A stretch of DNA of 35,655 bases from Phycisphaerae bacterium (lineage in GTDB: Bacteria > Planctomycetota > Phycisphaerae > Phycisphaerales > SM1A02): NCBI GenBank assembly GCA_002689385.1, contig NZFX01000081.1, forward strand, positions 22,595 through 58,249, read 5' to 3'. Made by a program: the position numbers and the translations under genes. The notes beneath the pieces were generated by a model, which saw nothing but the letters and a program-made list of their open reading frames with translations, searched no databases and had not been told where the DNA came from. Within the stretch, counting starts at the first letter, position 1, and each line of letters opens with the position of its first letter. Shown here in pieces: positions 509 to 4,605 of this stretch.

Positions 509-2764
509 ATGACAAATGATTTCCCAACAGATCCAAATGCTGAAACCATCGGCTTGCCAAGTGACGATTCTGGCAATGGAAGTGTGCCTGAACTTGGTAA
601 ATTTGTTACGACTGGAATGCCATCAGAAATTGGTAGGTATAAAATTTTGGGAATCATCGCTAGTGGTGGTATGGGCGTTGTCTATGAAGCAATGCAAGAA
701 GCTCCGAGAAGGCGTGTAGCATTAAAAATTATTAAAGCAGGCGCAGGGAGCGATATGGCTTTGCGTCGATTTCAATTTGAAGCCCAAACCCTCGCAAAGT
801 TAAGCCACCCAAATATCGCTCAAATTTTTGAGGCGGGTACTTGGGAAAGTGAAAATGGCGAAAGTCCATTTTTTGCAATGGAGTACATTCCAGGAGCAAG
901 CGGTCTTGTGGAGTATGCGCAAAAACGCAATCTCTCTATAAAAGATCGCCTGGAGTTATTTCAGAAAATTTGCGAAGCAGTGCATCACGGTCATCAAAAA
1001 GGTGTCATCCACCGCGATCTCAAACCAGATAATATTTTGGTTGATAACCAGGGCGAACCTAAAGTCATCGACTTTGGCGTTGCGAGAGCGACGGATGCTG
1101 ACCTTGCTGTTACAACAATGCAAACAACGATGGGGCAACTCATTGGTACATTGCAATATATGAGCCCAGAGCAATGCGATGCAAATCCAGATCGCATTGA
1201 CATACGTAGTGACGTGTATGCTCTTGGAGTAATTTTGTTTCAACTGTTGTCTGGCAAGTTGCCTTACGATTTAAAAAAGCAAGCAATTCATGAAGCCGTC
1301 AGAGTGATTAAGGAAGAACGTCCGGAATCACTTGGAACAATTAGCATAACACTGAAAGGTGATATAGACACCATTGCGTTGAAAGCGATGGATAAAGATC
1401 GAGAAAGACGATATCAATCAGCATCCGAACTTGCGGGCGACATTCAACATTACTTAAACAACGAACCAATCATCGCACGTCCGTTAAGTATTGTTTACCA
1501 ATTAAGTTTGTTTACAAAAAAATACAAACGAACTTGTCTTGCCGCAATTTTGATTATTGTTTCAATTGTGCTCGGTATCATTGGTACTACATGGGGAATG
1601 GTTGAAGCGAATCACCAGAGAGCCCTCGTAGAAGATCGAAATAGGGCATTAGAGAGTTCTGTAGATTTGTTAATAGTTGGCGTGAAAGATGTCGTGCAAG
1701 ATTTAGGGAACTCTGCTGAAGCGCAAAGAATGTTGCTCAATATTGCACGCATGAATATTGATGCAATGCAGCAAGGGGACGAGGCAACCCCAATGCAGCA
1801 AATTGATCTTGCCCAATTACTTATTCGAAATGCTAAATCTTCCATAGCAATTTCAGGTGTTGGTTTTGGAAATGTTGATGAAGCGAGAGTTTCTTTAGAA
1901 GAAGCACAGCAGATAATTAGTAGCATTGATGATTCTGTGTTGACACCTGAATATGCCATTGGAGTTGCAAGGCTTAGGTTAGATATCTGGAAGTACTTTG
2001 CCGAGGTTGCAAGAACCCAAGCACGTTTGGAAACAAACAAAGAGGCTAAAAATGCTGCATTACAACAAGCGGCACGAATGTATCGAGAACGAGAACAAGC
2101 AGGAAAACAATACTACGATGATACAGGTGATATTAAAGGTATTGATGTGCAAAAATCATCACTTCAGGGATTAGGCAATGTGCTTGTATTGCTTGAAGAA
2201 ACAGAAGAAGCTCAGAATGCCTTCAAAGACGGGCTTAGATATGCTCGAACCTTACTAGAAAAAGATCCAATGTCTACTCGTAGGCAGAGGGGGGTTGCAA
2301 TTGCGCTGTACGGTCTTTCAGAGCAAATGAGTTCGCATAATCCAGAAGTTGCTTTGGCTCAACTTAATGAAGCGGTGAAAATTACACGCTCTGTTAACCG
2401 TACTGAACCAAATCATGCACGAAGACCACGTGATCTAGCTTTGATGCTTTCACTTCGAGGTCAACTTCTTATTGCAATAGGCGAAAATCAGGAAGCAGGG
2501 ATTAAAGATTGCGAAGAAAGTGTTGAATGGCTTACTCTTCGTGCGGTAGAGAGCCCAAGAGAACTTACTTCCCAAATAGATTTTGAAGATACGATAATAA
2601 GTATGCTGACCACGATGGCGGAAGCGAACTTGCTCGAAGAAGGGAAAGCCATGTTGGTTGATACTATCAATCAGTTAACATGTATTGCCAGTGCAGAAGA
2701 ACTTGCTGGACGTACCCAGTGGAGTGACATTTTGTTGCGACTCGAAGAGCATTCAGGCTTTTAG
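509..2764 (+). CDS. PknB-type transmembrane Ser/Thr protein kinase
   Basis: Eukaryotic-type kinase of 751 aa that phosphorylates Ser/Thr in a signalling role; the targets are unknown. The catalytic domain spans about residues 44-316: glycine loop IIASGGMGVVYEA (first loop glycine replaced by Ala51), ATP-binding Lys73, HRDLKPDN with Asp170, DFG at 188-190, GTLQYMSPEQ activation segment end (219-221 as SPE), and DIRSDVYALG. A hydrophobic segment at about 342-364 is a single transmembrane helix. The ~385 residues after it would lie outside the cytoplasm; they are helical, rich in Ala/Glu/Gln and TPR-like, probably a sensor or interaction domain. All core catalytic residues are present, so it should be active. 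It begins 37 nt after the preceding gene with its own -10-like box, which suggests separate transcription. Confidence 0.95.
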   Translation: MTNDFPTDPNAETIGLPSDDSGNGSVPELGKFVTTGMPSEIGRYKILGIIASGGMGVVYEAMQEAPRRRVALKIIKAGAGSDMALRRFQFEAQTLAKLSHPNIAQIFEAGTWESENGESPFFAMEYIPGASGLVEYAQKRNLSIKDRLELFQKICEAVHHGHQKGVIHRDLKPDNILVDNQGEPKVIDFGVARATDADLAVTTMQTTMGQLIGTLQYMSPEQCDANPDRIDIRSDVYALGVILFQLLSGKLPYDLKKQAIHEAVRVIKEERPESLGTISITLKGDIDTIALKAMDKDRERRYQSASELAGDIQHYLNNEPIIARPLSIVYQLSLFTKKYKRTCLAAILIIVSIVLGIIGTTWGMVEANHQRALVEDRNRALESSVDLLIVGVKDVVQDLGNSAEAQRMLLNIARMNIDAMQQGDEATPMQQIDLAQLLIRNAKSSIAISGVGFGNVDEARVSLEEAQQIISSIDDSVLTPEYAIGVARLRLDIWKYFAEVARTQARLETNKEAKNAALQQAARMYREREQAGKQYYDDTGDIKGIDVQKSSLQGLGNVLVLLEETEEAQNAFKDGLRYARTLLEKDPMSTRRQRGVAIALYGLSEQMSSHNPEVALAQLNEAVKITRSVNRTEPNHARRPRDLALMLSLRGQLLIAIGENQEAGIKDCEESVEWLTLRAVESPRELTSQIDFEDTIISMLTTMAEANLLEEGKAMLVDTINQLTCIASAEELAGRTQWSDILLRLEEHSGF

Positions 2765-2936: not shown

Positions 2937-3539
2937 ATGATATCAAACAAAATCAAAATAAGAATAGTTTTATTGTTTTCGTTATTAATTTCAATGAGTT
3001 GTGATTCTAGAGTCATCGAAGTTTCAGAAAAAAATGTAAAAAATGAGAATAAGAATATGAATGTCGAAAATCTATATGCAATGCAGGCTACTAATCTTGA
3101 GGGCGAAACGATAGAGCTTTCCAGTTATGCCGGCAAGATTACTTTGCTAGTAAATGTTGCTAGTAAATGTGGTTATACAAAACAGTATGCAGATCTTCAA
3201 CAATTAAATGATGAATATGCAGAGCAAGGATTTGCAGTTATTGGTTTTCCATGTAATGATTTTGGAAAACAAGAGCCCGGTGATGCGCAAGATATTAGTG
3301 CATGTGCTGCAAAATATTCCGCTACATTTGACTTAATGTCAAAAGTCGTTATATCTGATCATGCAAATCGTTCTGCTATTTATGATTATTTAATATTAGA
3401 GACTGGTGTAGAGCCATCATGGAACTTCGGAAAATATTTAGTCGATGTAGATGGGAAACCTATTGCATTTTTTGGTTCCAATATTAATCCGACTTCAGAT
3501 GAGATAACTTCAAGAATAGAGACATTGCTTAAGCGATAA
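2937..3539 (+). CDS. Lipoprotein glutathione peroxidase (thioredoxin-type, Cys form)
   Basis: Thiol peroxidase of 200 aa that reduces hydrogen peroxide and lipid hydroperoxides. The N-terminus has a hydrophobic stretch ending in a lipobox-like LISMSC (Cys22), so the enzyme is probably membrane-anchored outside the cytoplasm. Family motifs: NVASKCGYT with peroxidatic Cys78 (cysteine, not selenocysteine), FPCNDFGKQEPG with Gln112, and WNFGKYLVD with Trp162 and Asn163. Cys123 sits where thioredoxin-dependent bacterial and plant members carry the resolving cysteine, so thioredoxin is a likelier reductant than glutathione. The family usually has ~160 residues; the extra ~45 are the signal and a linker. 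No Shine-Dalgarno precedes the start. Confidence 0.93.
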   Translation: MISNKIKIRIVLLFSLLISMSCDSRVIEVSEKNVKNENKNMNVENLYAMQATNLEGETIELSSYAGKITLLVNVASKCGYTKQYADLQQLNDEYAEQGFAVIGFPCNDFGKQEPGDAQDISACAAKYSATFDLMSKVVISDHANRSAIYDYLILETGVEPSWNFGKYLVDVDGKPIAFFGSNINPTSDEITSRIETLLKR

Positions 3540-3657: not shown

Positions 3658-4605
3658 TTACTTTCTCCATGCTTTATGGCATTGAATACATGTTTGTTCT
3701 ACGCGGTGCAAGTGTTCACTGAATAACTTGACATCAATTGTATCTGTGTTCAAAATCTGTTCTAATCTAGATGCTTCATGAAACGCATTAATAGTCTCCC
3801 CGACGAAATTCTTATTAAAAAATGGAGATTCTTCATCCAGTTGCATGGAGCGAAATGTTTCAGCAATTATTCCTGCGTCTGCGGTTGGTGCAAGGTCAGG
3901 GTGTGACTTTGGAACAATCCATTTTGACTGCTCAACAAGCAAGAGTCTATCAAGAGCTTCATCAATGTCAATCATTTGTGCGGTCATGCCAGTTGGTTTT
4001 ACAACCGAAGGAAATGTTTTTTCATTTTTAACGATCTCAGACATACTGATTAATTGCTGCCGCTCAACTGCTTCCCACAACCCTGTGTAGTACTGGGATG
4101 TTTCAGAAACTTGCATCCTTTCTTTCATTTCTTGCGCATTTGATAAATCAAGTGCAATCGATACGAGTGCTGCTGCTGCTGCCGATCGATGTTTTCCATG
4201 ATGGCAATGAATGTATACATTCCCATTCAATCTATTCATCATGAATGCGGAACAAAGGTCGAGAATCTGTGTTTTATTTGGCGAGTTGTATTTAAGAGGG
4301 AGATGAATCGTATTGATGCCATACTCTCTTGCCCTTTCAACTTCTGGTGCAATGCCATCGACACAAATAATAGAAGCAATATTGAGTTCAACTAACGATT
4401 TCATTCCCCACTCGCCTTCCGGCCTACTTCCAGAAAATAAATCATCCTGAAACGCTACAACTTGTTTTAACCCTGGGAAGAAGGCGGGTTTCGTTGCTGT
4501 TAACAGTGGTAAAGCATTTTTAACTTTATATGGGTCTGACTGTTCCGAGACAACGCAGCTAACGCAGAAATATACGAAGCATAGAATTATGCAGAAACGA
4601 ATCAC
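3658..4605 (-). CDS. Exported tyrosine-phosphatase-like protein with C-terminal cytochrome c'-like haem motif
   Basis: This 315-aa protein has a GTG start, a hydrophobic N-terminus (residues 1-18, possible lipoprotein Cys17), and a cysteine-phosphatase fold: residues ~45-185 with the C-x5-R loop HCHHGKHRSA (Cys134, Arg140). A helical region of ~110 residues follows and ends in CIQCHK (306-310), a haem c attachment motif placed near the C-terminus as in cytochrome c'. Haem c attachment happens outside the cytoplasm, which fits the signal peptide. The phosphatase could act on phosphotyrosine or another phosphate ester; the general acid is not obvious. The combination is unusual and the redox role is inferred from the motif alone. 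It is convergent with the glutathione peroxidase gene. Confidence 0.8.
   Translation of the reverse strand: MIRFCIILCFVYFCVSCVVSEQSDPYKVKNALPLLTATKPAFFPGLKQVVAFQDDLFSGSRPEGEWGMKSLVELNIASIICVDGIAPEVERAREYGINTIHLPLKYNSPNKTQILDLCSAFMMNRLNGNVYIHCHHGKHRSAAAAALVSIALDLSNAQEMKERMQVSETSQYYTGLWEAVERQQLISMSEIVKNEKTFPSVVKPTGMTAQMIDIDEALDRLLLVEQSKWIVPKSHPDLAPTADAGIIAETFRSMQLDEESPFFNKNFVGETINAFHEASRLEQILNTDTIDVKLFSEHLHRVEQTCIQCHKAWRK

Follow-up and report, generated by a model that had tools for sequence, protein, structure and literature searches.

Cysteine-dependent phosphatases are inactivated by oxidation, and we know of none that is controlled by haem. Among haem proteins, the cytochromes c′ (PF01322) are stand-alone four-helix bundles with a C-terminal CxxCH; their distal residue is varied and usually not a ligand, and their haem is five-coordinate. 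For a haem c to be attached, the CxxCH protein must be exported and an assembly system must be present. NaxLS (Kusta0087/0088), from the planctomycete Kuenenia, is a heterodimer of two small cytochromes without a phosphatase, and its distal position is a Cys; in NaxL, ligation of the class II haem does not prevent NO binding. On the phosphatase side, PFA-DSP1 and Siw14 are eukaryotic inositol-pyrophosphate phosphatases without a haem domain, and the P-loop of Siw14 ends in KHR. According to PMC9038691, the P-loop of PFA-DSP1 also ends in KHR, both enzymes lack a WPD-type general acid, PFA-DSP1 is active, and mutation of the P-loop His that precedes the Arg costs it over 90% of its activity. 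TpbA, a periplasmic dual-specificity phosphatase (DSP) of Pseudomonas aeruginosa, likewise has no haem domain; PMC4409338 gives its P-loop as HCKHGNNR and its proposed general acid as Asp105.

In a 35,655-nt stretch of DNA from a Phycisphaerae bacterium (the window), a single gene encodes both kinds of module. Its product shares with TpbA a predicted export leader, the DSP fold and an HCxHGxxR loop, but it carries a haem domain, its loop reads HCHHGKHR and Asn107 takes the place of Asp105. With PFA-DSP1 and Siw14 it has the KHR ending in common; unlike those two, about half of its family has an Asp at the acid position. The haem domain has the four-helix bundle and C-terminal CxxCH of the cytochromes c′ but is fused to a phosphatase, and it has a Met where NaxLS has its Cys. 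Both domain types are known; their pairing was not found described in Pfam, NCBIfam or the literature searched.

We tentatively propose that this is an exported Cys phosphatase controlled by a His/Met-ligated class II haem serving as redox input. The protein would be exported, perhaps as a lipoprotein, and would unite two working parts in one chain, a DSP-type Cys-dependent phosphatase and a class II haem c, bound covalently, with His310 and probably also Met211 as its ligands. The haem iron would be set to Fe(II) or Fe(III) by electron carriers or oxidants of the periplasm, and this redox state would change the activity, the access or the oxidation state of the adjoining phosphatase.

Layout of the protein

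The gene (positions 3658–4605) lies on the minus strand, which the preliminary description had not recorded, and runs from a GTG start to a stop codon at 3658–3660, encoding 315 aa. The export that the preliminary description had suggested is consistent with a hydrophobic leader of 17 residues ending in Cys (4555..4605, minus strand), for which the structural model predicts a helix at residues 2–18. By the lipobox rule, the leader is a candidate lipoprotein signal; its lipobox is poor in the window protein (CVSC) and reads IAGC in the relatives L004 and L005. The AlphaFold2 model of the whole protein, built from 30 aligned sequences, had a mean pLDDT of 89.5 and a pTM of 0.75, a value that leaves the orientation of the domains, and with it the distance from haem to Cys, unsure. 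It contained four helices between residues 206 and 313 (206–226, 239–255, 265–285 and 292–313), as expected from the four-helix bundle that had been suspected at 205–315. Because structural comparison of the whole model by VIA covered residues 41–194 only, the C-terminal domain was modelled separately (82 sequences), giving four long helices at a pLDDT of 93.4.

Pfam recognized both halves of the window protein only under the cut-offs (PTP-SAK, 22.3 of 27 bits; Cytochrom_C_2, 15.9 of 26.5), every phosphatase model, including Y_phosphatase2 (PF03162; 17.1 bits versus 27), scoring under its cut-off. No NCBIfam family matched it, and 3 of 30 family members weakly matched an NCBIfam sulfur transferase/dioxygenase model. 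A model of the entire protein was found in neither Pfam nor NCBIfam. Our literature searches found no description of a phosphatase–cytochrome fusion; a survey of the rhodanese-phosphatase superfamily, which reportedly appeared in NAR Genom Bioinform in 2023, may mention the pairing. When the window protein was shuffled 20,000 times, a CxxCH arose at some place in 157 of the shuffles, so the motif by itself is modest evidence. Comparison with the 95%-identical relative L002 (dN 0.023, dS 0.12; NG86) indicated that the gene is under purifying selection.

A family spread through Planctomycetota

At E ≤ 0.001, with partial matches counted as well, 97 of the 181 genomes in the same family had a match, as did 167 of 301 in the order and 204 of 392 in the phylum. 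A scan of genome contigs confirmed at least 393 relatives; the 80 retained from it bear planctomycete or 'uncultured bacterium' titles, except for two metagenome-assembled genomes named Leptolyngbya (L088) and Chitinophaga (L141), which are probably mislabelled. In a first set of 118 distinct full-length homologues, drawn from 161 loci with the window's own copy (L001) included and repeats of the same core dropped, HC(x5)R and CxxCH were both present in all 118. A second set comprised 80 further places, most of them picked since the match reached the end of the profile; CxxCH was found in 80 of 80 and HC(x5)R in 79. The fusion is no accident but a planctomycete family spread through the phylum.

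The one second-set member without the HC(x5)R motif, L243 (382–1599, minus strand), is a fused protein whose P-loop flank has degenerated to TCETGRDR, while the equivalents of Met211 and CxxCH are kept; judging from these residues, it is perhaps turning into a haem-only protein.

The sets were joined in an alignment of 198 rows, in which the window protein stands twice (P0001 and L001) and from which one exact duplicate was dropped. Nine residues were invariant (His101, Pro103, Cys134, Gly137, Arg140, Met211, Cys306, Cys309 and His310), and five more were nearly so: His133 (197 rows), Asp83 (196; 4357..4359, minus strand, a feature of the family), Arg314 (195), Tyr173 (194) and His139 (191). 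Cys17 of the leader was aligned in 131 of the 198 rows, and a lipobox-like pattern occurred in 62 of the 118 members of the first set.

The haem domain and its candidate ligands

The class II cytochrome c (cytochrome c′-type) domain spans residues 198–315 (3661..4014, minus strand). Its top VIA match was the Kuenenia NaxLS complex (6r6o; rmsd 2.3 over 103 residues) with a Z of 13.7, which is not higher than the best Z of about 14 that VIA states as typical when a helical model lacks a clear match. Next came Shewanella and Thermochromatium cytochromes c′ (Z 13.0–12.6) and engineered b562, the first eight entries all being class II cytochromes. Foldseek returned nothing at E ≤ 0.001, its best hit being a cytochrome c′ at 0.02. 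A profile of the domain (A2) matched cytochrome c′ 5b3i at E=1.4e-6, and Cytochrom_C_2 was matched at E ≤ 0.01 by 75 of the 82 members, the window domain alone reaching 17.5 bits against a gathering threshold of 26.5. A PF01322 search of the window's genome gave no match though the domain is present there, the window copy being a weak match. Since the VIA score does not exceed 14 and Foldseek was empty at its threshold, it is chiefly the profile matches and CxxCH that carry the class II assignment, with which the first eight VIA entries agree.

The motif itself, which the preliminary description had placed at 306–310, reads C306-IQ-C309-H310 (3676..3690, minus strand) and is the predicted site of haem c attachment, with His310 as proximal ligand. 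None of its haem residues varies in the 198 rows, and the R/K that follows a class II CxxCH is present as Arg314. A further residue, absent from that description, is the invariant Met211 in helix A (3973..3975, minus strand; 198 of 198 rows), a candidate second axial ligand. The first residues aligned by VIA paired model residue 8 with residue 1 of the b562 chain, and model residue 7 with residue 25 of the NaxLS chain and residue 9 of Chromatium c′; these values, which are range ends and not residue pairs, would place Met211 (domain residue 14) at b562 Met7, at NaxLS Cys32 and at residue 16 of c′. These three are the distal haem positions. Against the VIA ranges, a profile–sequence alignment to cytochrome b562 placed Met211 one helical turn off the ligand Met7. 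Ligation of the haem by His310 and Met211 is likely on the evidence of conservation, and the invariant Met211 favours a redox haem with six-fold coordination over an open site for gas binding, and argues against a five-coordinate, high-spin haem.

This bears on the possibility that the protein is a gas sensor, in which a five-coordinate haem like that of classical cytochromes c′ would bind NO or CO and thereby switch the phosphatase. The haem domain does have the fold of the cytochromes c′, but a Met kept in every row is unlike their varied distal residue, and we consider such a sensor unlikely, though the NO binding by the ligated haem of NaxL leaves it some probability.

For cytochrome c assembly, the genome contains a gene of the CcsA type (L257; PF01578 E=1.5e-31; WGWDPKE). 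At this locus (L257:1489–3695, minus strand) the CcsA-like ORF adjoins a short ORF that matches only part of ResB, just under the cut-off, and a whole-genome search for ResB returned no match; L257 is perhaps a reduced System II. Elsewhere, L279 (1678–3160, minus strand) holds two tandem class-II-like cytochrome ORFs, recalling the NaxL/NaxS pair.

The phosphatase domain and its catalytic residues

Residues 41–195 (4021..4485, minus strand) have a DSP/PTP fold according to VIA, Foldseek and a whole-protein profile (A1). VIA matched them to VHZ/DUSP23 (2img; Z 17.2, rmsd 2.6 over 143 residues), TpbA (4r0s; Z 16.6, rmsd 3.1 over 157 residues) and Siw14 (Z 15.9, rmsd 3.0 over 149 residues), with Z 15.0–15.9 for PFA-DSP1 and Siw14 and Z 14.7–17.2 across the best 50 entries; the Foldseek E was 9e-6. 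With profile A1, a single search of the PDB retrieved TpbA at E=3.7e-8 and, at E about 6e-4, class II cytochromes c. The pairing of a Cys phosphatase with a cytochrome c′-type haem domain, originally read from motifs, is thus borne out by the predicted folds, by the profile matches and by its conservation throughout the phylum.

The C-x5-R loop was where the preliminary description had located it (His133-Cys134-HHGKH-Arg140). The P-loop HCHHGKHRS (residues 133–141; 4183..4209, minus strand), with the predicted nucleophile Cys134, Arg140 and His139, sits at the N-terminus of a helix (strand 129–134 and helix 140–151 in the model) and has the HCxxGKHR form, with a His before the Arg, of PFA-DSP and Siw14. 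By contrast, the usual general-acid Asp of the WPD-like loop, on which the preliminary description was silent, is absent: profile alignment matched TpbA Asp105 to Asn107 (4285..4287, minus strand). Position 107 is D in 101 of the 198 rows, N in 41 and another residue in 56, and 13 of 119 rows, among which the window protein is counted twice, lack an acid at 107, 110 and 111. This Asp does not decide membership of the DSP/PTP superfamily, because PFA-DSP1 and Siw14 also lack it, nor does its absence mean a dead enzyme, given that PFA-DSP1 uses the P-loop His. The missing acid may instead point to a substrate whose leaving group is good, for example a phosphoanhydride; taken together, the basic P-loop (GKHR) and the absence of a fixed general acid weakly suggest a phosphoanhydride or a polyanionic phosphate rather than plain phosphotyrosine.

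Cys134 would lie in an oxidising compartment, and across the 198 rows no second Cys of the catalytic domain is conserved, only the leader Cys17 being common among the other Cys of the window protein; the usual protection by a resolving Cys is therefore missing. The haem could then be an electron conduit that gives electrons to Cys134, or takes them, and repairs periplasmic oxidation as upkeep rather than as a signal. However, 11 phosphatase-only relatives have no adjoining haem partner, TpbA works alone, and one-electron thiol chemistry requires a special site, none of which was identified in this protein; we regard the conduit as quite unlikely.

The absent acid and the degenerate P-loop flank of L243 could equally suit a pseudo-phosphatase, whose DSP fold would bind a phosphorylated ligand or partner without turnover and leave the haem as the active part. 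Set against this are the complete conservation of Cys134 and Arg140 (198 of 198), that of His139 in 191 rows, and the precedent of PFA-DSP1, active without the acid that Siw14 also lacks (PMC9038691). A protein without turnover is very unlikely, and a haem-controlled active phosphatase remains the reading that we prefer.

A probable path from neighbouring genes to one chain

Among the phylum matches listed (to about 1e-17), 14 relatives ended before profile position 200 and were classed as phosphatase-only; their loci were examined with flanks of mostly ~1.5 kb. The preliminary description had regarded homologues lacking CxxCH as evidence against the haem domain. All fused homologues examined keep the motif, in favour of the domain, whereas these 14 lack it; in three of them (L167, L168 and L173), a separate class II cytochrome gene lies directly downstream on the same strand. 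The three cytochromes matched the domain profile at E=5.6e-6 (L167), 1.6e-5 (L168) and 8e-4 (L173), values that apply to a small search, and were separated from the phosphatase gene by an 83-nt gap, a 4-nt overlap and 58 nt to the first possible ATG, respectively. The accompanying P-loops were HCHAGRHR, HCKNGKHR and HCHHGKHR. Each cytochrome has its own hydrophobic leader followed by Cys, with a clear lipobox in L168 only, and a Met was seen by eye in a helix-A-like stretch of the L167 and L168 proteins.

The other 11 loci contained no match to the cytochrome profile within E 0.01 and no CxxCH ORF of at least 40 aa, and their P-loops end in DR in ten cases and in HR in one (L163), which sits on a long branch away from the fused rows. 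A further candidate pair, L166, was rejected: its cytochrome-profile match was sub-threshold (E=0.51) and the ORF had no CxxCH. Conversely, in 20 regions around other cytochromes, covering 21 of 26 weak matches (most regions hold class-II-like cytochromes and one, L276, a class I-looking one), no such phosphatase was found at E<0.01, while the same phosphatase profile recovered 14 of 14 phosphatase-only loci. The 11 unpaired loci and the 20 cytochrome regions lead us to reject chance adjacency of the split genes. Among the matches listed for the order and the class to which one split-pair genome belongs, and for the order of a second such genome, no further pair appeared. L173 (1079–2029, minus strand) has an odd N-terminus unlike the family, lies near a contig end and shows an apparent second, degenerate phosphatase-like repeat; it may be an assembly join.

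A tree was built from 123 phosphatase domains, comprising 28 random members of the 118, the 80 further relatives, the window protein and the 14 phosphatase-only relatives. The 109 fused rows formed one side of a branch (support 100/98; 100% of 200 bootstrap trees), with no phosphatase-only row among them. The three split-pair rows adjoined the fused side at a weak node (96/38), L167 and L173 on long branches. The simplest history is that neighbouring genes came first and a single fusion later. Distances of the two domains correlated at r=0.77 (permutation maximum 0.11), as expected for joint inheritance, relatedness not being corrected for. Because operon neighbours became one chain, which is strong evidence of joint work, the two partners very probably act together. 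Two activities that are independent and were joined solely to be co-expressed or co-anchored might explain why split genes exist whose cytochromes have their own leaders, but are highly improbable when the fused form has spread through the phylum with its haem and catalytic residues invariant and the 109 sampled fused rows have no phosphatase-only row among them.

Gene neighbourhood

An all-against-all comparison of ORFs at 81 loci (80 retrieved loci and the window) revealed no gene that keeps a fixed position except among close relatives, and the neighbours at these loci gave no hint of a pathway. In the window, a glutathione-peroxidase-like protein with a lipoprotein-like leader (2937–3539, plus strand; PF00255 E=2e-32) is encoded tail-to-tail with the gene. 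It is tempting to see it as fitting a theme of peroxide, thiol and haem; this peroxidase was absent from the neighbour clusters of four or more loci among those listed. A Ser/Thr protein kinase with a weak TPR match lies at 509–2764 (plus strand; PF00069 E=2e-43), and 8 loci, counting the window, have Ser/Thr kinases in the vicinity of the gene, at varying distances and on varying strands. In one subgroup (L095, L098, L110, L115 and L154), a rhodanese-like gene is directly downstream of the phosphatase–cytochrome gene and a lipoprotein-like gene is upstream, adjacent or within about 1.1 kb.

Haem as a possible gate for a thiol phosphatase

Between the actions considered for the haem, we infer that control of the phosphatase by the haem redox state is the likeliest, and favour it over gas sensing. 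With somewhat more reserve than for the single protein, we suggest that the family may be a new class of haem-gated Cys phosphatase, periplasmic and signalling or metabolic in role, with an activity that follows the redox state of the enzyme's own class II haem; it would be widespread in Planctomycetota and derived from fused neighbours. Periplasmic signalling in Planctomycetota is poorly known, and the phylum-wide pairing in a single chain, together with its split-gene relatives, offers a ready system in which to ask whether haem can gate a thiol phosphatase.
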